Origin: Hydrogenimonas sp.
GTDB lineage: Bacteria > Campylobacterota > Campylobacteria > Campylobacterales > Hydrogenimonadaceae
NCBI GenBank assembly: GCA_015490295.1
Contig: WFYC01000034.1
Coordinates: 1-64,000 of the forward strand
Length of the DNA: 64,000 nt
Reading direction: 5' to 3'
The notes below the pieces were generated by a model. It worked only from the letters and a program-made list of their open reading frames with translations. It did no database searches and was not told where the DNA came from. Below are positions 4,117-17,284 of the stretch, in pieces; position 1 is the first letter of the stretch, and each line of letters opens with the position of its first letter. Position numbers and translations under genes: made by a program.

Positions 4117-6594
4117 ATGGAGAGCAGAACCCTCGTGTTTACCGATGACAGTGTGCCTGTAGAGGGTCATTTCGATATTGGAGGGGGGAGCGATCTCCTC
4201 TTTGTAGTCATAGCGGCTACCGAGCGCATGGGACATCTTCGAAATGTTCTGGATGCGCTGAAGAGGCTCTATCCGAAGGCAAAGACGGTGGGTGCTTCCA
4301 GCGACGAGGTGATCGTACCGGAAGGGATTTTGAAAAACGGAGTTGTAGCCGTAACGGCACTCCTTTTCAAAGAGACCACGGTCGATACTGTCCATGTCTC
4401 ATCCTGCTTCGATGTCACCGAAAAGGTCGAAAAATTCTTAAATACCAAAACAAAGGTGATGATCTCTTTTAGCGAGGCGGCTTCGGTAAACGGCGAACTC
4501 TTTCTGGATGAACTGAGCAAAATTTCAGGCTCCATCCCGATAACCGGCGGTGTGGCCGCGACACCCACGTTTCAAAACACTTTTGTCATAGAAGATGGAA
4601 AGATATACGACAGCGGTGCGGTTATAGCCTTTTTGAATTCCAAAAGCCTCAGAGTCTATGTAGACTACTCTTTCGGATGGCAGGCCGTAGGACGTTCGTT
4701 CAAAATTACCGAAGCGGAAGGAAACAGGGTGGTCTCCGTCTCCGGAGTCTCACCTGCACGGCTTTTCAGAAGATACCTCGGAGATGATGTGGTCGCCGCC
4801 ATGCCGGGAATCGGATCGGCATTTCCGTTTATTGTACGAAGAGACAATATGCTCATAGCGCGGGGAATCATAGGTGTGGAGGGCGAGAGTTTCATAGTTT
4901 CCGGCAATATCCGTGTCGGAGACGAAGTATATATAGGTTACGGAAATCCGTACTCTGTACTTCAGCAAAACGGACTCCACAAGAGGCTCGTACGCAAAAT
5001 TCCCGACCCCGATGCGATCCTTAGCTTCTACTGCGAAGGCAGAAAACACTTTCTTCCAAGAAGTGTGGTCGAGTACGAGGAGAGGGTTTTAAACTCCATA
5101 GCCCCTACCTGCGGAATGTTTACCTTGGGAGAGTTTTACGGAAAAGGGCGTATGGATTTTCTGAACTTCAGCTCCACGGTAGTGGCACTAAAAGAGGGAG
5201 AGCCGGGCGGCGGGAGAGTGTTCGACTTTCCAAAGCCGCCGAAACTCAGGGATCTTGAGCTCGTATCGGAAGGGCTTTTCCATTTTATAGATGTACGTGT
5301 GAAAGAGCTTGAAAATCTGGCTTACTACGATGAGCTCACGGGACTTCCGAACAGAAACCTCTTCAGCGGTATTCTGCAAAAGAGCATTGCCGATGTGTCG
5401 AGTAAAAACAGAAGCGGCGCGCTCTTTTTCATAGATATAGACAACTTCAAAAATATCAATGAAACCGCCGGACACAGTGAGGGGGACGAAGTTTTAAAAG
5501 AGGTCGCGAAACGGCTGAAAGAGGGTTTGGGCAAGAAGCGTACACTCTGCCGTTTAGGCGGAGACGAGTTTGTAATAGTGGCTGAAGATATGGAGGATAG
5601 AGCGGAGACGGCAGATTTTGCGGAGGAGATTCTCCATAGACTTAAAGAGCGAATCGAGTTTGGAGCGCACGGCTACCATCTGACGGCGAGTGTGGGGATT
5701 ACTTTTTTCTCGAAAGAGAACAGCGACGTGGGAGAGATCCTGAAGCAGGCCGACATAGCGATGTACAGGTCAAAAAGGGGCGGAAAAAACAGGTGGAGCA
5801 TCTATCTCGAGAGCATGGGGCAAGACGCGATGGAGCGTTACCGGATAGAGCAGGAGCTTCGAGCGGCGATAAAAAACCGGGAGCTTGTTCTGCACTATCA
5901 GCCGCAGTACGACATTCGGACAGGGCGCATTGTCTCGGTAGAGGCTCTGGTGAGGTGGAACCATCCCGAGCGCGGAATGCTCTTTCCCGACAGCTTCATC
6001 GAAGTTGCCGAGTCGTCCGGCCTCATAGTACCTTTGGGTGAGCTTGTACTGGATATGGCTCTGGAGTTTCTGTCCGGTTGCAGCTGCATAGAGAGAGTCG
6101 CGGTCAATATCTCCTCGAAGCAGTTCAACGATGCCGATTTTTTCTCTATCCTGATGCGTCTTTTGCAAAAACATGCGGTCGATCCGCACAATTTGGAATT
6201 GGAGATGACAGAGTCGGTCGTTATGGATGACGACAGTGAGACAACAGACCTTCTCTTCTCATTGGCCGCCGAGGGCATAAAACTGAGTATAGACGATTTC
6301 GGTACGGGGTACTCCTCTTTGAGTTATCTAAAGCGTATGCCCATAAGCACTCTGAAAATCGACCGTTCATTCGTTATGGATATACCGAAAGACGAGAGCG
6401 ATGTAGCGATAGTCAAGAGTATAGTGGCCATGGCCAGGGCGCTTGGACTCAATCTGATAGCGGAGGGTATAGAGACAAAAGAGCAGGCAGAGTTTTTCAA
6501 AAAAGAGGGCGCGGTTGTCGCTCAGGGCTATTTCTACTCCAAACCTGTCGAGGCACAAAAGGTACTGGAGCTGATCGGAGGATCGGAAAAATAG
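4117..6594 (+). CDS. FIST sensor - GGDEF - EAL cyclic-di-GMP protein
   Basis: 825 aa signalling protein. Residues about 5-200 are a FIST_N domain (GASSDEVIVPEG, ITGGVAATP) and about 210-375 FIST_C, a ligand-sensing module proposed to bind small molecules such as amino acids. A GGDEF domain follows (about 385-555; motif intact at residues 481-485) and an EAL domain (about 565-820; EAL at 609-611, TES, DDFGTGYSS with the Asp pair at 726-727, AEGIE). Both catalytic signatures look complete, so it could make and break c-di-GMP. The residues before GGDEF lack the RxxD inhibitory site, so product inhibition is not expected. No membrane helix: cytoplasmic. Single gene, divergent from the czc-like operon; the ligand is unknown. 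Confidence 0.95.
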   Translation: MESRTLVFTDDSVPVEGHFDIGGGSDLLFVVIAATERMGHLRNVLDALKRLYPKAKTVGASSDEVIVPEGILKNGVVAVTALLFKETTVDTVHVSSCFDVTEKVEKFLNTKTKVMISFSEAASVNGELFLDELSKISGSIPITGGVAATPTFQNTFVIEDGKIYDSGAVIAFLNSKSLRVYVDYSFGWQAVGRSFKITEAEGNRVVSVSGVSPARLFRRYLGDDVVAAMPGIGSAFPFIVRRDNMLIARGIIGVEGESFIVSGNIRVGDEVYIGYGNPYSVLQQNGLHKRLVRKIPDPDAILSFYCEGRKHFLPRSVVEYEERVLNSIAPTCGMFTLGEFYGKGRMDFLNFSSTVVALKEGEPGGGRVFDFPKPPKLRDLELVSEGLFHFIDVRVKELENLAYYDELTGLPNRNLFSGILQKSIADVSSKNRSGALFFIDIDNFKNINETAGHSEGDEVLKEVAKRLKEGLGKKRTLCRLGGDEFVIVAEDMEDRAETADFAEEILHRLKERIEFGAHGYHLTASVGITFFSKENSDVGEILKQADIAMYRSKRGGKNRWSIYLESMGQDAMERYRIEQELRAAIKNRELVLHYQPQYDIRTGRIVSVEALVRWNHPERGMLFPDSFIEVAESSGLIVPLGELVLDMALEFLSGCSCIERVAVNISSKQFNDADFFSILMRLLQKHAVDPHNLELEMTESVVMDDDSETTDLLFSLAAEGIKLSIDDFGTGYSSLSYLKRMPISTLKIDRSFVMDIPKDESDVAIVKSIVAMARALGLNLIAEGIETKEQAEFFKKEGAVVAQGYFYSKPVEAQKVLELIGGSEK

Positions 6595-8272: not shown

Positions 8273-9301
8273 ATGAAAATCTTAGTATCAGTCGCCCTTT
8301 GGATATACATTGTACCCGCTCTATTCGCTCAGGAGCCGGTCATACGCGAGCAGGTCATCATGGGTACGTTCGCACACCTGCGTCTGCCCGCCTCCCGTGC
8401 CGAAGATGCCGGGAAAATTTTCGGCGTTATGCGCTCTGCCGAGAGATCGCTCTCATCTTTTCGCGACGACGGCGGGACGGCGCGCCTGAACAGGCTGCGC
8501 CGCATCGAGGCGGACGAGACGCTTCTGCGTGCCATTTCGTACTGCCGCATGCTTTTTAAGTTGAGCGGCGGCTATTTCGACTGCACTATAGGATCGCTTA
8601 CGCGCTCTTTGTACAGGTTTGGAGAGAGGGGCGCCGCCGTCCCTTCCGAAAAGGAGCGAAGGCTTGCGAGGGTCGGTATGGGCGGCGTCAGGGTGCAGGA
8701 CGGCGTCGTGGAGCTGGAGGAGGGGATAGTGCTCGATCTCGGGGGGCTCGGAAAAGGTCAGGGCGTGGATATGGCGGCAGAAGAGGCGAAGAGACTCGGC
8801 ATAAAGAGTGCCGTAATAGGCCTGAGCGGAGATATCCGATGCCTCGGCCCATGTGAGGTGGCCGTACAGAACCCCTTCGGCAGGGGCGTAGTGGGAGCTG
8901 TAGTAAACGAAGAGGGTGAGCTCGGCATCTCCACCAGCGGCATATACAGGCGCTATATAGGCACCGTCCGCAACAACCACCTGATCGATCCGTACAAAAA
9001 AGAGAGTGCCCGGCGTCTCGTTTCGGTAACCCTTGCCGCAGTGGCGTCGAACGCGCTGCTCGACGGTTTGGCCACTGCCGTTGCTCTCATGCCGGTAGGG
9101 TCGGCCATAGAGCTTTTACGCGACAAAAAGATAGACGCGCTGCTCATTGCGCCGGACGGCACGTTTTTGCGTTTGGGAGATAAGACAAGGGTCGATCCAG
9201 ATAGCCTCGGCGGCTCTATTTTGCACCCGTCGCTTTCGCCGCAAGAAGTGTCGCGATACCTGAAAAGGCAGCAAAGGTCAGAACCGCCAAAAGAGTTCTG
9301 A
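8273..9301 (+). CDS. apbE: FAD:protein FMN transferase (ApbE family)
   Basis: Extracytoplasmic Mg-dependent enzyme that transfers FMN from FAD onto a Ser/Thr of target flavoproteins. 342 aa from the ATG at 8273, chosen because a signal peptide follows (MKILVSVALWIYIVPALFA); the open frame extends 52 codons further upstream with no signal. ApbE hallmarks: MGT near residue 27, LGGLGKGQGVD mid-protein, HLIDPYK, and a C-terminal SNALLDGLATAVALM matching the usual aDalaT motif. The last 86 nt overlap, tail to tail, the membrane protein gene on the other strand. Its likely substrate is the FMN-binding protein at 10072-10617. The signal ends in ALFAQ without a lipobox, so it is probably soluble in the periplasm. 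Confidence 0.93.
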   Translation: MKILVSVALWIYIVPALFAQEPVIREQVIMGTFAHLRLPASRAEDAGKIFGVMRSAERSLSSFRDDGGTARLNRLRRIEADETLLRAISYCRMLFKLSGGYFDCTIGSLTRSLYRFGERGAAVPSEKERRLARVGMGGVRVQDGVVELEEGIVLDLGGLGKGQGVDMAAEEAKRLGIKSAVIGLSGDIRCLGPCEVAVQNPFGRGVVGAVVNEEGELGISTSGIYRRYIGTVRNNHLIDPYKKESARRLVSVTLAAVASNALLDGLATAVALMPVGSAIELLRDKKIDALLIAPDGTFLRLGDKTRVDPDSLGGSILHPSLSPQEVSRYLKRQQRSEPPKEF

Positions 9302-9602
9302 AGATATTTTCACCGTATAGAGATGCCGCGATATCTACGGATATGACGGCAAAAAGGGCGACACTCGGCCGAAACGGCTTCCCCGGGCCGCCATCCTCTT
9401 TTGAAACGAGAAGCAGGTGCAGAAGCGTGAAACCGACCGCGCCCATCCCGAGAAGATGAACCGCGGCTATCTCCAGCCAGCCCGTCAATGTGGGAGTCGG
9501 AACACTCCTGAGAAGGTAGAGCCAAAGACCCGTAGCGACGGTGAAGATCGCAACGACTGCGAGAGTCGCGGCGAGCAGGGAGTATAGGGCGCTTCTTTTC
9601 AC
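9216..9602 (-). CDS. small four-helix membrane protein with two histidines, flavin module
   Basis: 128 aa from a GTG at 9602 that overlaps the upstream stop (GTGA); a longer frame from 9665 would run 66 nt into the upstream gene and adds no membrane helix. Four hydrophobic helices at about 7-31, 42-66, 79-95 and 101-123. Helix 2 holds His49 and His62 (VHLLGMGAVGFTLLH), a 13-residue spacing like heme-ligand pairs of b-type cytochromes, but one helix alone cannot complete a bis-His site, so partners would come from the neighbour or the dimer. No family recognised. Last gene of the porin/FMN-binding operon. Role as membrane electron carrier is inference. Confidence 0.7.
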   Translation of the reverse strand: MKRSALYSLLAATLAVVAIFTVATGLWLYLLRSVPTPTLTGWLEIAAVHLLGMGAVGFTLLHLLLVSKEDGGPGKPFRPSVALFAVISVDIAASLYGENIFRTLLAVLTFAAFSGIATLLAAKATGAK

Positions 9603-10072
9603 TTCGAACCTCTTGCGAGAGCCCGAATGCAGAAGAGGGCCGCCGCAAAAGCGGCAAGGTGCCACACGAGGGTAAGTACCAGCCAGAGAGTGGCCGCAAT
9701 ATTCCCGGCGACCGGGACGAGCAGGAAAATGGGCTGCGCCGTGAGCGAAGAGGCGCCCAGAAGGAGGATGAGGGTGCGTGTCGATCGGCGCTCCGCGAAG
9801 AGGCGGATGTAGGTCGCTCCTACGATACCGAGCAGCAAAAATATGAAAAATAGGTTCATGTGCACCTGCAAAAGGAGCTCTTCGAAAGGGAGCGGATCGA
9901 TAAAGAGCTCTTCGTCTCCCGTTACGGCCGAGGTTACCTGCTGCGGTGTTGCTCCGTAGCGCATCGCCTCCAAAACGTAGTGGGAAACTATGAACAGAGA
10001 TACGGCCGACATCAGGAGTATGAGTGCGATTCTCATATTCGGTGAGATCGATGGAGTTGCAAGAAAGCGCAT
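9599..10072 (-). CDS. membrane protein of the flavin module (candidate electron-transfer subunit)
   Basis: 157 aa; ATG shares its A with the stop of the FMN-binding gene (TAATG). Four hydrophobic helices at about 13-37, 65-92, 100-120 and 125-152, with a 25-residue, acidic non-membrane segment between the first two. Histidines lie at His31, His71 and His138, each in or at the edge of a helix, so heme or quinone binding is possible. An internal Met at residue 13 is an alternative start. I do not recognise the family. Overlap with both neighbours (1 and 4 nt) argues for one functional unit with the FMN-binding protein and the 128-aa membrane protein. Confidence 0.7.
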   Translation of the reverse strand: MRFLATPSISPNMRIALILLMSAVSLFIVSHYVLEAMRYGATPQQVTSAVTGDEELFIDPLPFEELLLQVHMNLFFIFLLLGIVGATYIRLFAERRSTRTLILLLGASSLTAQPIFLLVPVAGNIAATLWLVLTLVWHLAAFAAALFCIRALARGSK

Positions 10073-10617
10073 TATCGGTCCCTTTTCAATATATCGAAGA
10101 GTGCGAGTGCGAGCCTGGCGCCGTCGGTTACGTTTCTTGCCGAGAGGGTGGCGCCGGAGATTGTGGGTATGTCGCGTCCGGCTCGAAGAGGCTTTGAGAG
10201 ATCTTTTCCATCCATCAGTTTGAGCCAGCTCTTTGCGGGCTTGTATTCGGGCGGCTCAGCAAAGGCCAAAATCTCTATAGAGACTATTTCTCCGGGCTCT
10301 TTGACGATGTAGAGAACCGCAGCCTTTTTGGTGCGAACCTTCCGGCTGAGGAGAATACCGACGCACTCTGGCCCGCTGCGGCCGGAAGCCGTGTAGTATC
10401 TGACGATCCTTGAATGCAGCTTCGTTCCGGCGACCTTTTGAATATCGGCAGCCTCTTTTTTTGAAAGCAGCCTGCTCCTTTTTTCGACACCGACCGCTTC
10501 AGGACAGCTCTGCTTCATTATCTTTGCGATATCCACCGCCTCTTTCGCGTAGAGCGGGTGGCTAAAATATGAAACCGAGACCAAAAGAGAGAGTATCGAT
10601 TTTCTCGCTGCCGTCAT
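10072..10617 (-). CDS. periplasmic FMN-binding domain protein (ApbE substrate candidate)
   Basis: 181 aa with a signal peptide (cleavage after about residue 24, LYA) and an NqrC/RnfG/NosR-type FMN-binding domain. The covalent flavinylation motif is SGAT at residues 154-157 with Thr157 the expected FMN attachment site, followed by the usual LSARNVTDGAR helix. The Asp usually three residues before the Ser of this motif is Pro here; the nearest Asp is 149. ATG preceded by AAAGGACAG; it starts 56 nt inside the porin gene. Expected to sit in the periplasm as a one- or two-electron carrier between the membrane proteins downstream and an unknown acceptor. Confidence 0.9.
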   Translation of the reverse strand: MTAARKSILSLLVSVSYFSHPLYAKEAVDIAKIMKQSCPEAVGVEKRSRLLSKKEAADIQKVAGTKLHSRIVRYYTASGRSGPECVGILLSRKVRTKKAAVLYIVKEPGEIVSIEILAFAEPPEYKPAKSWLKLMDGKDLSKPLRAGRDIPTISGATLSARNVTDGARLALALFDILKRDR

Positions 10618-11839
10618 TTCTGTCCTTTATAGCGTAGTCCACTTTTAAAACCACCTGTTCATGCGGATAGTAGTTGATACCGAATGTCCAGATATCCATA
10701 TCGTTCATCGCCGCGGCTTCTCCTTCGCGCTCCTTTACCGGGTTGTAGCTCTCGTACCGGATAAAAAGCGGCACCGAAGATGTGTGACCGAGGCCCTGCA
10801 TAATGTCATACTCACCTGTAACATACCAACCCTGCGCCTTTTTGGCGGCGGTTGGAGAGATCTTCTCCGCTCCACTCAGCATGGCCTGCGTGAATAGTCC
10901 CTTCACCTTTATAGATTCGTAACCGTATATGGCGTGAAGGTCGTAAATGAGTATGGAGGTGCCGTCCACATTCGCACTTGTTGAATTGGAAGCGTTTCCC
11001 CAGTAAAACGATACTCCGGCCGTCAGCCCCTCTATTGCGCCGTAATCGAGTCGGCCGGTCAGGGCTACTCTCTGCATGGCGGCTTTGTCGGCCGAACCCT
11101 GCCTGCCGTCTCTGATCCATACGGCTTCACCGTTTTTTGTAGCGTCGCTGTTTAGATTGAGCGAGTTGACGAAACCGAAGTGGTAGTAGAGATCGGCTAC
11201 AGCTGTCTCGCCGTACGCTATCACCCCGGTTTCGTTCCAGGTGCTCGGGATTATGTACTTTTCCGTCTCGGGTCTCTGGACTGTGGGGAAGAGAGTGGGT
11301 TCGTGCTTCATGTTTACAAGCCCTACCGGCACCAGCTGGCTTCCTACACGCAGGTTGAGGTTTCGGCTCAGAAGAAAGTCGAGGTAGAGAAACTCAATGG
11401 CTACTTTGTCGCCTCCGTGCTCGAACTCCAGCTCTGTATTCAAGATGATGTTATCGCTGAATTTATACCCTATGTACGGGACGAACCGGTAGACGTCCGT
11501 TATCGCCACCTGGCCGGAGGAGTCGGCCCAGTACATCTCGCCGTAACCTCCTATGGAGAGCGGGTTTTGGGTGTAGTAGACCTTCGATGCCGCCGATCCC
11601 AGGCCGCTGTGGCTCTTTGTAACGTCCACCGTCTGAAACCACCCCTCGCTCTGAAGTGTGGCCAGCTCATCTATCAGAGCCGATCTCTCCTGCTCGCCTT
11701 TTTTCTGTTTCTGCTCGAGCTCGCTAAGCCTCTTTTGCATCTGCTCCAGCTCTTTTTGAAGATCTGCACCGCTTGCCGCCGATCCGAAGGGGACAACCAT
11801 CATGGCTGCGACCGCAGCCATAAGTTTCTTACTTCTCAT
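10562..11839 (-). CDS. porin, OprO/OprP-like outer membrane barrel
   Basis: 425 aa. Signal peptide (cleavage near residue 24), then a Glu/Gln/Lys coiled coil (about 27-66, LQKELEQMQKRLSELEQKQK), then alternating aromatic beta strands ending in the outer-membrane signature ...GLGFIF. Lengths and strand motifs (YLDFLLSRNLNLRVGSQLVP, DMDIWTFGINYYPHEQVVLKVDY) resemble the phosphate-selective porin O/P family; actual substrate is unknown. First gene of the flavin operon, directly behind two Fur-box-like palindromes, so probably expressed under iron limitation. AT-rich leader, ribosome site AGGAGAG before the ATG. Confidence 0.85.
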   Translation of the reverse strand: MRSKKLMAAVAAMMVVPFGSAASGADLQKELEQMQKRLSELEQKQKKGEQERSALIDELATLQSEGWFQTVDVTKSHSGLGSAASKVYYTQNPLSIGGYGEMYWADSSGQVAITDVYRFVPYIGYKFSDNIILNTELEFEHGGDKVAIEFLYLDFLLSRNLNLRVGSQLVPVGLVNMKHEPTLFPTVQRPETEKYIIPSTWNETGVIAYGETAVADLYYHFGFVNSLNLNSDATKNGEAVWIRDGRQGSADKAAMQRVALTGRLDYGAIEGLTAGVSFYWGNASNSTSANVDGTSILIYDLHAIYGYESIKVKGLFTQAMLSGAEKISPTAAKKAQGWYVTGEYDIMQGLGHTSSVPLFIRYESYNPVKEREGEAAAMNDMDIWTFGINYYPHEQVVLKVDYAIKDRNDGSEKIDTLSFGLGFIF

Positions 11840-11852
11840 AATCTCTCCTAAA

Positions 11853-11867
11853 TGAAAATGAATATCA
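11853..11867. promoter_or_regulatory. Fur-box-like palindrome 1 of the porin/flavin operon
   Basis: TGAAAATGAATATCA fits the Fur 7-1-7 consensus at 12 of 14 positions. It lies 14-28 nt upstream of the porin ATG, where bound Fur would block the transcript start or early elongation. Confidence 0.6.
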
Positions 11868-11902
11868 GAATGATAAAGAAAGAGACCTTTTGATAAGCTT
11901 AA

Positions 11903-11917
11903 TGAGAATCAATATCA
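11903..11917. promoter_or_regulatory. Fur-box-like palindrome 2 of the porin/flavin operon
   Basis: TGAGAATCAATATCA also fits the Fur 7-1-7 consensus at 12 of 14 positions. It lies 64-78 nt before the porin ATG, in the region expected for the promoter. Two equally good sites 50 bp apart (start to start) make chance less likely and iron repression of the operon the simplest reading. Confidence 0.65.
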
Positions 11918-11967: not shown

Positions 11968-14900
11968 TCATTTTTTTATAAGAGTTCTGGATGTATAGAT
12001 CTCGTAGAGTATGGGTATTATGAGAAGACTCAAAACCGCTGAACTCACGACTCCGCCGATCATTGGTGCCGCTATTCGCTGCATCACTTCACTGCCAACG
12101 CCGTGGTGGTACATGATGGGCAGAAGTCCCGCGAGTATCGCGAATACCGTCATCAGTTTCGGCCTTACCCTCTGAACCGCCCCCTCGAATATGGCGGCTC
12201 TGAGCATCTTTTTGTCGAGTGTTCCCTCTCTTTTGAGGGCCTCATGCACACTCTCCTGCAGGTATACGATCATGACTATGGCCGTTTCGGCAGCGACTCC
12301 AAGCAGTGCCAGAAAGCCGACGACCACTGCGACGCTCATGTTGAAATCGAGCCAGTCTATGTATAGAAGCCCGCCCAGAAGCGCGAACGGCAGGGTAAAA
12401 AAGACGATAAGAGTCGGTACCGTCTTTTTCAGTGCGAAGTATATGAGTACGAGAATCACGAGAAGCACCATCGGAGCGATCCACATAATCTTTTTCATGG
12501 CGCTCTGCAGATACTCCGACTGGCCGGCCCATTCGATATAGTAGCCCGAGGGCATTTTGAGCCCGGAGAGCAGCTTCTGTGCCTTGGTTTTGTATTCGGA
12601 AGGGCTGACACCGCTCTTTGGCGTGATATATATGAAAGTTACAGGTTTGGCCATCTCGGTTTTGATGACGGAAGCGCTCTCTTTGTAGTGCACATCGGCC
12701 AGAGAGGAGAGTGGTACGAACCCGAGCGGCGTCTTTACCTGAAGGTTGCGTATCGCCTCTATCGTGCGGCGCTCCTCTTCTTCGAAACGGATCGCCAGAG
12801 GGTACCTCTCGAGCCCTTCTATTATCGTGCCGACCTTCATCCCGCCTATTCCGAGGGATGTGTAGGCGAGTATCTCGTTTTTCGTAATGCCGTAACGTGC
12901 AGCAGCCGCTTCGTCTATGTCGATATCTATGTAGTAGCCCGCATCGGACTGGTCCGCAAAGACAGACATCGTTTCACTCATACCGCGAAGCTTCTGCTCT
13001 ATCTGCGAGCCTATCTTTTGCAGGGTTTTAAGATCGTCACCGTAGAGTTTGATGCCCAAAGGGGTTCTGATGCCCGAAAGAAGCATATCTATACGCCCCC
13101 TGATCGGGTAGGTCCAGGAGTTGACAAGTCCCGGAACCTGGAGCGCATCTTCGAGCTCCTGTTGAAGCTTTTCGTAGGTCATCCCTTCGCGCCATTCGCT
13201 TTTTGGTTTGAAGGTTATGATCGTCTCGAGCATACCGAGCGGAGCCGGGTCGGTCGCGGTATCGGCACGACCACCTTTTCCGAAGACGGTATCGACTTCC
13301 GGAAAGCTTTTGATTATCTTGTCGGTTTTCTGGGTCAGCTCTTTGCTCAGGTCTATACTTATTCCGTAGGGAGTGACGGGCATATACATAAATGTCTGTT
13401 CGTTCAACATCGGCATGAACTCCCACTTCAGCTTCTCGTAGACCGGTACCATCCATACAAGCAGGGCGATTGCCGCGACTATCACCGGATACTTCAGTTT
13501 TATACCTATGGTCAGGATCGGGTTGTAGAGCCATATGAAGAAGCGGTTCAGAGGGTTTCTCTTTTCGCTTTGAATTTTACCCTTTACGAACCATACCATC
13601 AAAACCGGAACCAGCGTGACGGCCAGCAGCGCCCCGGCTGTCATCGCAAACGTTTTCGTAAAGGCCAGCGGTGTAAACAGAAGCCCCTCCTGCCCCGAGA
13701 GTGCGAAGATCGGAAGAAAAGAGACCACTACCAGTGCAAGAGCGAAGAATATGGGGCGGCCTACAGTCTTTGAAGCTTTGACGATAGCCGCGATACGCTC
13801 TTTGTCGGTTACGGCTCCTCTCTTTTCGATTTTATGTATCTCTTTGTGCGCATTTTCGATCATTACGATCGAAGCGTCCACCATCGCGCCGATGGCTATG
13901 GCGATGCCTCCGAGACTCATAATATTGCTTCCGATGCCGAACATCTTCATCAGCAGAAAAGTTATTCCGATAGTAAGGGGAAGTACGATCAGAACTATCA
14001 GGGAGCTTCTGAGATGGACGAGAAAGAGCGCGATGACGATTACGACTATCAGACTCTCTTCGAAGAGTGTCGATTTCAGCGTCTCGACGGCTTTTTCAAT
14101 GAGGCTGCTTCTGTCGTAGGTCTCCACTATCTGCACATCGTCGGTTTTTAGGCTTTGAAGCTTCTTCTTCACATCCTGTATGACACGATAAGCGTCCGAT
14201 CCGTAGCGTATCATGACGATTCCGCCCACCACTTCGCCCTCGCCGTTTAGATCGGCCACGCCGCGCCTTGGAGCGGGTACCTTCTCTACGCGCCCCAGAT
14301 CTCCTATGGTAACGGGGATTCCGCCTCTTTCGGTTACGACTATGCTGCGTATATCGTCGAGGCTGCGTATGTATCCGCGGGCCTGGACCATCCACTCGTA
14401 ACCGTTCTGAATCACTATGCGCCCGCCCGTATCGTTGTTGTTGGCCTTCAGTACGCGCGATATGTCGGTAACGGAGAGGTTGTGTCTTACCAGAGCGTCG
14501 TTGCTGAGCGTCACCTGCCATGTAGGAACGAACCCCCCGACGGAGGCTACATCGCTGACGCCGTCGACTCCCATAAGGGCATACTTGTATGTGTAGTCCT
14601 GCAGTGTGCGAAGCTCCGCAAGGTTTTTCGTTTTACTCACAAGTGCATACTCATATACCCAGCCGACTCCCGAGGCGTCGGGCCCCAAAGAGACCTCGAC
14701 CCCGGGCGGGAGGGAGCTCTGGATGGCGGCCAGCTGTTCGAGCACCCGGCTCCTGCCCCAGTAGAGGTCGGTCCCCTCCTTGAATATGATGTATATGAGG
14801 GCGTTTTCGTAGGTCGAGAAGCCCCGAACCGTCTCTATGTCGGCGATTGCCAGAAATTTGGTGATAAGGGGGTAGGTGACCTGGTCTTCGATGATGTTCG

Positions 14901-15072
14901 GGCTCTGGCCGCCCCACTTCACCTCTACGATCACCTGCGGGGGCGAGAGGTCCGGCAATGCGTCGAGCGGCGTATTTTTTACGGCCCAGAACGACCCCAT
15001 AACGATGAAGAGTGTCGCCATCAGGATCAGAAAGCGGTTTTTGACACTGAAGTCTATGATCTTCTCAATCAT
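11968..15072 (-). CDS. cusA: CusA-family heavy-metal RND efflux pump
   Basis: 1034 aa, normal length for the HME-RND family. It pumps metal ions, probably Cu(I)/Ag(I), from periplasm or cytoplasm to the outside. Seen: N-terminal helix (12-30), PLDALPDLSPPQVIVE, the porter domain, GAMVDASIVMIENAHK with the proton-relay region around Asp399 and Glu406, and a second half repeating helix-porter-helix. EFMPMLNEQTFMYMPVTP (residues 551-568) carries Met553, 555, 562 and 564; the YMP Met fits a methionine of the copper-binding triad of CusA, but I could not align the other two. Third gene after cusC- and cusB-like genes, 8 nt after the adaptor. Copper/silver specificity is inferred from methionines and the Met-rich YtkA-like partner. 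Confidence 0.93.
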   Translation of the reverse strand: MIEKIIDFSVKNRFLILMATLFIVMGSFWAVKNTPLDALPDLSPPQVIVEVKWGGQSPNIIEDQVTYPLITKFLAIADIETVRGFSTYENALIYIIFKEGTDLYWGRSRVLEQLAAIQSSLPPGVEVSLGPDASGVGWVYEYALVSKTKNLAELRTLQDYTYKYALMGVDGVSDVASVGGFVPTWQVTLSNDALVRHNLSVTDISRVLKANNNDTGGRIVIQNGYEWMVQARGYIRSLDDIRSIVVTERGGIPVTIGDLGRVEKVPAPRRGVADLNGEGEVVGGIVMIRYGSDAYRVIQDVKKKLQSLKTDDVQIVETYDRSSLIEKAVETLKSTLFEESLIVVIVIALFLVHLRSSLIVLIVLPLTIGITFLLMKMFGIGSNIMSLGGIAIAIGAMVDASIVMIENAHKEIHKIEKRGAVTDKERIAAIVKASKTVGRPIFFALALVVVSFLPIFALSGQEGLLFTPLAFTKTFAMTAGALLAVTLVPVLMVWFVKGKIQSEKRNPLNRFFIWLYNPILTIGIKLKYPVIVAAIALLVWMVPVYEKLKWEFMPMLNEQTFMYMPVTPYGISIDLSKELTQKTDKIIKSFPEVDTVFGKGGRADTATDPAPLGMLETIITFKPKSEWREGMTYEKLQQELEDALQVPGLVNSWTYPIRGRIDMLLSGIRTPLGIKLYGDDLKTLQKIGSQIEQKLRGMSETMSVFADQSDAGYYIDIDIDEAAAARYGITKNEILAYTSLGIGGMKVGTIIEGLERYPLAIRFEEEERRTIEAIRNLQVKTPLGFVPLSSLADVHYKESASVIKTEMAKPVTFIYITPKSGVSPSEYKTKAQKLLSGLKMPSGYYIEWAGQSEYLQSAMKKIMWIAPMVLLVILVLIYFALKKTVPTLIVFFTLPFALLGGLLYIDWLDFNMSVAVVVGFLALLGVAAETAIVMIVYLQESVHEALKREGTLDKKMLRAAIFEGAVQRVRPKLMTVFAILAGLLPIMYHHGVGSEVMQRIAAPMIGGVVSSAVLSLLIIPILYEIYTSRTLIKK

Positions 15073-15080
15073 GACGACAC

Positions 15081-16085
15081 CTAAAAGAGCCCGTTGATCT
15101 GGGCGTCGCTGTCGATCAAAAAGAGCGCTTTGCTCACCACTTCGTCGCCCTCCGAAAGACCGGAGAGCACCGCATAGTGCTCACTGTCTATCGGTTTTAC
15201 CTCTACCTCGACCGGCTCATACTCCCCTTCGAACTCTCCGGCTCTGAAGGCGTACCACCTTCCCATTTTGCGAATTACGGCCGTACGCGGAAGCATAGGC
15301 ATGGATTCGCTTTTTGATTCTGCCGTAAGGGTCGCGAACATTCCGGGCAGAAGGCGGGCTTTTGGATTCTTTATCTCCAGCCGCAGGGTGGCGAGCCCGT
15401 TTTCCGGGTCGATACTAGGATAGAGAAGCGGTTTGTGCGCCTCGAATCTCTCCGGCAGCGCTTTTGTGCTCACGATAAATTTCGACGCACCCATAAGCGT
15501 CCGGATATCGGGCTCGCTCACTTTCGCCTCCATCCAGATATTGTCGAGCGAAACGATCTTGAAGAGGCTCGACTTTGCGTTGAACGCACTCCCCTCTGAC
15601 AGGTTTTTTTCGAATACAAATCCCGACGAAGGAGCCTTGACGAAGGTGTAAGGGTCGCTCTTTTTGCCTCTTGCAAGCGCTGCTATCTCCTCTTTGCCGA
15701 TGCCAAGAAGCTCGAGTTTGAGCTTAGCGCTTTCGACCATGTTGGAGTTGCCCCGCCTTTTTGCGTAGTTGATGGAGTTTATATACTCCTCTTTCGCCTT
15801 GAAGACTTCCGGCGAATAGACTTTCGCCAGCACCTGACCCTCTTTGACCCTCATATATACTCTGTCGGCGTAGAGTTTCACCACATACCCTCCGTATCTG
15901 GGGACGACCTCGTGTATGAGCGCGTCATCCGTTTTCAGGAGGCCGTAAAATTGCCTCTTAAAAGCGGCAGAAACCTTTTTGACTTTGACGGTCTGCACGT
16001 TGAAGAGCTGCTCCACGGTCGGTTTTTCGGCAGCCGTCACATAGAGTGTCGGCAGTAGCATCAGTATCAGTAAACTTTTTTTCAT
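15081..16085 (-). CDS. cusB: CusB-like RND periplasmic adaptor
   Basis: 334 aa membrane-fusion protein with signal peptide (about 1-18). The lipoyl half-motifs (GGYVVKLYADRVYMRVKEGQVLAKV near residues 65-90, and SSGFVFEKNLSEGSAF near 155-170) flank a short helical hairpin; a beta-barrel and a membrane-proximal domain follow. It lacks the His-rich tract of the first adaptor in this window. It hands metal to, or gates, the pump encoded next door. Starts inside the stop of the outer-membrane factor gene (ATGA, 4 nt). Confidence 0.88.
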   Translation of the reverse strand: MKKSLLILMLLPTLYVTAAEKPTVEQLFNVQTVKVKKVSAAFKRQFYGLLKTDDALIHEVVPRYGGYVVKLYADRVYMRVKEGQVLAKVYSPEVFKAKEEYINSINYAKRRGNSNMVESAKLKLELLGIGKEEIAALARGKKSDPYTFVKAPSSGFVFEKNLSEGSAFNAKSSLFKIVSLDNIWMEAKVSEPDIRTLMGASKFIVSTKALPERFEAHKPLLYPSIDPENGLATLRLEIKNPKARLLPGMFATLTAESKSESMPMLPRTAVIRKMGRWYAFRAGEFEGEYEPVEVEVKPIDSEHYAVLSGLSEGDEVVSKALFLIDSDAQINGLF

Positions 16086-17284
16086 ATCTCTTCTCCCAAA
16101 ACAGCCTCTATTTTTGCCAGAGTGATAAAATATTTCGCGCGTGCGGTTATTGCTTCCGAATCGAGTCTGAGCTTCTGCTCCACAAGGTCTATGAATTTGT
16201 AGAGATCTCCGCCTGCGGCGATCTCGGAGCGGATCAGGTCGAACATATGCTCTATCTGCGGCAGGGACTCTTTCTCTATGATCTCGACTATTTTGCGGCT
16301 GCTCTCGGCTTCCGCATAGAGCCCCCGCAGTCGGGCCGCGACTCTTTTTCGGGAGTCTGCCGCCATCAGTTTGCGCTCCATTAGAAGGACCCTCTGCTCC
16401 TCCTCTTCGCTCTTTTGTGTGCCGTATACGGGAAGGGTAAAACCGACTCCGATAGAGACGTAGTCCTCAAAGGAGCTTCTTTGAAAATAGCCCAGGCGCA
16501 CGACAGGGTCGATTTTGCTTTTGAGTCTGTAGAGTTCGAGGCGCCGTCTCTGCATCTGCTCTTTGGAAACCGCGATCTCGACTTCGGGACTATTCTCTAT
16601 CTTCGAAACGAGCCTTTCGAGCGGCGGCAGCCTCTTTCGTTCCGGCTCTATCTCTACACTCTCGACGTTTGTGAAACTGAGATACCCAAGGAGTGCCAGA
16701 ACTTCTCTCTTTTGGGCCTCAAGGCGTTTCAGAGTGGTCTTGAGCCTCGATTTCACAAGCTCTGCCGACATAATGCCCATATGGGTATTCCCAGATTCAC
16801 CGGATGCGGTGTATGCTTCGAAAAGCTCTATATTCTGTTCTGTCAACGTAATAGTGCGGCGTACCACCTCTATGAGTCTTTCGCTCTCCCACAGGCGGTA
16901 CGCGCTCTGTTTTATCTTTGAAAAGAGCTCCGCTTCTGCCTCTTTCAGCGATGCGAAAAAGAGAGATTTTGCGGAGATCTTCAGAGCCTCTTTAGCATCT
17001 CTTTTTCCAAACCACGGAATCTTTTGCGAAAAGGTGACGGAGTGGGTTTGCATCCTCTCGAGCGAGCGGTCCGCGGGTCTGTCGAGCCTGATATCGTTGA
17101 TTCCCACTCCAAAGAGGGGGTCGTCGAAGTTTTTGGCCCGTTCGACGGCGTATTCCGCAGCCGCGATACGCAGCTTTATCGCTTCGAGGGAAGGGTGTTT
17201 GGTGCGTGCCGATTCGATCAGCTGCGGTATCGTAGCCGCGCTCAGGGATGCGGCGAAAAGGGCTGCAAGAAGCAGGGTGCGCAT
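16082..17284 (-). CDS. TolC/CusC-family outer membrane efflux protein
   Basis: 400 aa, signal peptide (MRTLLLAALFAASLSAA). Two helical OEP repeats with the typical heptad-like pattern (residues about 30-200 and 215-395), no lipobox. Forms the exit duct of the Cus-type system. It begins 9 nt after the YtkA-like gene and overlaps the adaptor by 4 nt. Sequence is clearly different from the other channel protein at 2328-3500, so each pump has its own channel. Confidence 0.9.
   Translation of the reverse strand: MRTLLLAALFAASLSAATIPQLIESARTKHPSLEAIKLRIAAAEYAVERAKNFDDPLFGVGINDIRLDRPADRSLERMQTHSVTFSQKIPWFGKRDAKEALKISAKSLFFASLKEAEAELFSKIKQSAYRLWESERLIEVVRRTITLTEQNIELFEAYTASGESGNTHMGIMSAELVKSRLKTTLKRLEAQKREVLALLGYLSFTNVESVEIEPERKRLPPLERLVSKIENSPEVEIAVSKEQMQRRRLELYRLKSKIDPVVRLGYFQRSSFEDYVSIGVGFTLPVYGTQKSEEEEQRVLLMERKLMAADSRKRVAARLRGLYAEAESSRKIVEIIEKESLPQIEHMFDLIRSEIAAGGDLYKFIDLVEQKLRLDSEAITARAKYFITLAKIEAVLGEEI

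Follow-up and report, generated by a model that had tools for sequence, protein, structure and literature searches.

Several flavin-based electron transfer systems are tied to iron. Transmembrane flavinylation systems (NapH-, MsrQ-, PepSY-, DsbD- and NQR/RNF-like) combine apbE with a secreted substrate and a membrane protein (Meheust et al. 2021, PMC8238504). Among them, PepSY clusters are reported to be Fur-repressed and linked to iron; flavinylation genes also lie next to iron transporters, and in the P19/FTR1-associated systems FMN_bind is tied to iron uptake (PMC8238504). Membrane partners of flavinylated carriers include PepSY-, MsrQ- and DUF4405-type proteins, some under Fur control (PMC8238504, PMC10979944). 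The DUF4405/FezC cytochromes, linked to apbE or to ferrosomes, are membrane proteins with histidines, and in models of FezC it is dimerisation that completes the heme sites (Huang et al. 2024, PMC10979944 / PMC11334425).

Here we describe an operon, conserved within its bacterial order, that works like the MsrQ, PepSY and DUF4405 flavinylation systems, yet whose two small membrane proteins, M157 and M128, match none of those families. It shares the iron tie of the PepSY members and, unlike the transmembrane systems above, adds a dedicated porin; in contrast to the P19/FTR1 systems, its main cluster contains neither P19 nor FTR1. Literature searches of an open-access library turned up no account of this operon. 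It is probably an iron-starvation-induced, flavin-based extracytosolic reductase module that sends electrons outward to ferric iron, employs a dedicated porin and feeds Fe(II) import. A preliminary description of this DNA had read the genes as an electron-transfer set tied to iron, a reading that the conserved neighbourhood and conserved histidines reported below support.

Gene order and conservation of the locus

The locus comprises four overlapping minus-strand genes and a convergent apbE. Its features in the window, the 64-kb stretch of DNA analysed here, are as follows.

8273-9301, plus strand: apbE, FAD:protein FMN transferase (PF02424, 164.7 bits) with a signal-like N-terminus, convergent with the operon
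9216-9602, minus strand: M128, GTG start, a 128-aa membrane protein with four predicted helices, His49 and His62 in TM2
9599-10072, minus strand: M157, a 157-aa membrane protein with four predicted helices, His71 in TM2 and His138 in TM4
10072-10617, minus strand: FMN_bind carrier (PF04205, 27.8 bits, cut-off 22) with a signal-like N-terminus and SGAT at residues 154-157
10562-11839, minus strand: porin, first gene of the operon (PF07396, Porin_O_P, 30.5 bits, cut-off 20.9), with a coiled-coil-like N-terminal stretch
11853-11867, no strand assigned: Fur-type palindrome TGAAAATGAATATCA, 12/14
11903-11917, no strand assigned: Fur-type palindrome TGAGAATCAATATCA, 12/14

Every element named in the preliminary description is present, with Pfam matches above cut-off for ApbE, FMN_bind and Porin_O_P, and the coordinates bear out the gene overlap and the convergence with apbE that it had claimed. 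Between successive minus-strand genes the overlaps are 56, 1 and 4 nt, and apbE and M128 share 86 nt at their 3′ ends. Elsewhere in the window, positions 4117-6594 encode an 825-aa protein that reads as a putative GGDEF-EAL regulator; an open reading frame of equal length adjoins apbE in the closest relative, L006.

The enzyme and its predicted substrate lie side by side, as in ApbE flavinylation systems in general, where apbE accompanies an [S/T]GA[S/T] protein. ApbE carries the motifs GGLGKG (at 157), GDIR (at 186) and HLIDP (at 236). By its motif, the FMN attachment residue of the carrier is predicted to be Thr157, the last residue of SGAT, and the longer motif [ST]GAT[LM]SA is kept in all 38 carrier orthologues. 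A profile search of the carrier against the PDB gave chance matches only. The window's assembly, 82% complete, holds one ApbE match and one FMN_bind match, and the window apbE therefore most likely serves the window carrier. Among the phylum's remaining apbE genes, many sit in clusters with a thioredoxin, a small lipoprotein and a 370-aa outer-membrane-like protein, which from their sequence context look like published DUF3570 systems.

The gene neighbourhood, which the preliminary description had proposed to check, holds across the phylum. M157 occurs in 38 of 397 genomes, in 8 genera, and we compared the 38 corresponding loci (the window and 37 fetched). The FMN_bind-M157-M128 core is together in all of them, with M128 directly downstream of M157 each time. 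apbE lies beside the core in 36 loci, and the two remaining genomes carry it at a separate position; it is usually convergent with the operon and diverges from the porin in L048, L050 and L060. A porin at the head of such an operon, which the preliminary description had called unusual, is instead the rule: it stands beside the core in 34 of 38 loci, divergent in one (L038).

The gene apbE is present in 38/38 genomes with the cluster and in 18/359 others (Fisher p ~1e-39); the genomes are related rather than independent samples, which inflates all p-values. Within the window's own family, five of 18 genomes carry apbE: four with the cluster, and G012, whose contig stops just past the gene. The porin subclass is similarly restricted, with 26 of the 27 genomes that match it carrying the cluster; in the exception, G210, it belongs to an iron locus. 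Between the five proteins, distance matrices show correlations of 0.82-0.91.

Some neighbours point to other metals. Directly upstream of the operon and on the same strand, window positions 11968-17284 encode a CusA/CzcA-family RND pump, a CusB-like adaptor and an outer-membrane channel (CusCBA), and in L036 (9887-12705) genes for a multicopper oxidase, CopB and a YtfJ-like protein lie beyond apbE. Such company would suit a system for copper, or for general metal or redox stress, instead of iron. We regard this as most improbable: the conserved box described below is of the Fur type, and RND genes are adjacent neither in L006 nor in most loci, which led us to reject CusCBA as a member of the system.

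M157 and M128, a pair of membrane protein families

M157 and M128 stand outside the recognised families. Family and PDB profile searches returned no Pfam, NCBIfam or PDB match for either, confirming an earlier claim that both were unrecognised. Down to E<=1 in Pfam, neither matched NapH, MsrQ (PF01794), PepSY (PF03929/PF16357), DsbD (PF02683), NqrB/RnfD (PF03116) or DUF4405/FezC (PF14358), and the sole match for M157 was DUF3860 (E 0.33). M157 had no match among plasmids. A scan of genome contigs with M157 alone found nothing, and one with alignment A5 found a single locus, L070.

The two proteins are related to each other. A profile of M157 recovers some M128 proteins with E down to 4e-11, and profile-profile comparison (hhalign) gives a probability of 96.8; by these measures the two are paralogous families. 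The hhalign alignment offsets their TM2 histidines by about 2 residues, so these histidines are not strictly equivalent.

Conserved histidines within the membrane are a feature shared with the DUF4405/FezC cytochromes. Across 29 M157 sequences the invariant residues are M, F, G, G, H, F, R and H, the histidines being H71 and H138 of the window protein. M157 also has an acidic loop of the form G(N/D)EExFxDP. Across 26 M128 sequences the invariant histidines are H49 and H62, 13 apart in TM2. Loss of histidines in homologues, named in the preliminary description as evidence against its reading, was confined to the divergent M157 of L070, which lacks the TM4 histidine; the four histidines are therefore not strictly required. 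Judged by hydropathy and charge, each protein would have four helices and both termini in the cytosol; H71 and H49 would then sit towards the periplasmic ends of TM2, H62 towards its cytosolic end and H138 within TM4. AlphaFold runs on the single window sequences gave poor models (pLDDT 59 and 65). The conserved histidines make M157 and M128 candidate heme binders; unlike the FezC homodimer or a single six-helix protein, they would form two different, paralogous subunits.

Proteobacteria offer an analogue of the pair. An operon on an Ideonella dechloratans plasmid (NZ_CP088082) encodes a barrel protein homologous to the window porin (6e-33), an FMN_bind protein homologous to the window carrier (3e-16) and ApbE, together with a small membrane protein rich in histidines. 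In contrast to the window operon, such proteobacterial operons have one membrane protein, with no detectable homology to M157 or M128, and no Fur-type box. A proposed homology of M157/M128 to the 155-aa Ideonella protein was unsupported by comparison. Where proteobacterial operons hold a related carrier, another small membrane protein takes the place of the pair; two of these proteins show weak similarity to DUF4405 or cytochrome b561, below cut-off, and we found no Fur-type box upstream. The proteobacterial proteins in the M157/M128 position are a case of analogy, not homology.

Fur-type boxes and iron-related loci

A Fur-type box is a conserved feature of the operon. We defined the box as a 7-1-7 palindrome scoring at least 12/14. 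The porin start codon is preceded, at distances of about 14 and 64 bases, by two such palindromes of 12/14, noted in the preliminary description and confirmed here; the 64 kb hold no others of that quality. The whole 1.77-Mb assembly holds 9 sites of at least 12/14, against 4 for a reversed control pattern, and single sites are therefore weak evidence. Conservation is more telling: a box of at least 12/14 precedes 33 of 34 orthologous porins, against 0 of 168 control upstream regions, as would suit members of a Fur regulon. A further 12/14 box precedes apbE in L050 and L060. At the level of sequence, this conserved box is the strongest regulatory evidence for the link to iron, and the five-gene set is very probably induced by iron scarcity. 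The genome encodes two FUR-family proteins and has two 13/14 sites, one before feoA-feoB and the other flanked by genes for an OprD-family porin and a P-type cation ATPase (L120; G000, contig C73, ~81406), the latter porin being the genome's second near a box.

Relatives of the parts recur in iron loci, giving an iron context independent of the box. In L112 (6291-12405), genes for an OprD porin, ApbE, an FMN_bind protein and a DUF6662 protein diverge from feoA-feoB, with a 12/14 box between. Four loci from the window's bacterial order (L111, L134, L135 and L136) hold imelysin, DHOR, imelysin and fatty acid hydroxylase genes with a paralogue of the window porin; apbE lies beside them in L111 and L136 and FMN_bind in L134, and unlike the window cluster they lack M157 and M128. 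In L137 the order is FTR1-porin-DHOR-imelysin-ferritin-Fur. L070 (20-8940), from a Campylobacterales MAG, encodes Fur, HMA_2, a MamC-like protein, a P1B-type ATPase, a short DUF4405-like protein, DUF4198, FMN_bind, M157 and M128, and has a 13/14 box. The MamC-like match (E 3e-6) and the DUF4405-like protein are below cut-off; in domain content the cluster resembles a ferrosome cluster.

The flow of electrons could in principle run the other way. The module would then oxidise Fe(II) and carry electrons inward, within an import route that accepts Fe(III) or depends on redox cycling, an idea raised for FTR1-type systems; the relative of the porin beside FTR1, DHOR and imelysin in L137 and the multicopper oxidase beside the cluster in L036 would fit this. 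Yet the main cluster has no adjacent FTR1, and characterised flavinylation systems run mostly outward (PMC8238504). The Fe(II) importer FeoB, moreover, is encoded in all 38 cluster genomes, a count that expresses compatibility with Fe(II) import and not enrichment. We hold inward flow to be very improbable.

A proposed path for electrons and iron

Outward flow to ferric iron gives the most economical chain: donor, M157/M128, FMN on Thr157, ferric iron, FeoB. Under iron limitation, Fur would leave the two boxes and the porin-FMN_bind-M157-M128 operon would be expressed. In the periplasm, the carrier would receive its FMN on Thr157 from ApbE, and M157 and M128, acting together as a small b-type cytochrome, would supply the flavin with electrons from quinol or a cytosolic donor. 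Ferric iron, or a ferric complex, admitted by the dedicated porin would be reduced by the flavin, and the resulting Fe(II) may be taken up by FeoB.

The same parts could instead serve respiration that spares iron. A flavin carrier would replace a c-type cytochrome and feed a non-iron periplasmic oxidoreductase or an outer-membrane acceptor, with the porin admitting the acceptor. Flavin and cytochrome carriers are seemingly interchangeable (PMC8238504), and among known Pfam families the operon encodes no ferric reductase. It also encodes no multiheme c cytochrome, in which it differs from MtrCAB-type porin-cytochrome conduits; in four related loci (L045, L063, L064 and L066) the gene directly after M128 encodes a penta-heme c cytochrome, recognised by its five CxxCH motifs, as such respiration might employ. 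Against this, the parts of the system accompany iron transport and storage genes, not respiratory reductases, and making a b-type cytochrome would itself use up iron as heme. Iron-sparing respiration thus seems unlikely.

A more specific form of the ferric-reductase reading can be offered tentatively. M157 and M128 might constitute a new family of split, heterodimeric b-type cytochrome that, with the flavinylated carrier and the porin, drives TonB-independent, porin-fed reductive iron uptake. H71 of M157 and H49 of M128, near the periplasm, and H138 of M157 and H62 of M128, nearer the cytosol, would then share heme sites.

Flavinylation systems are widespread, and many of their clusters have no recognised membrane electron-transfer part. 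M157 and M128 add two unrecognised families for that part, and a conserved regulatory site ties both to iron. The operon also gives an iron-redox system a porin of its own, suggesting that iron can cross the outer membrane independently of TonB.
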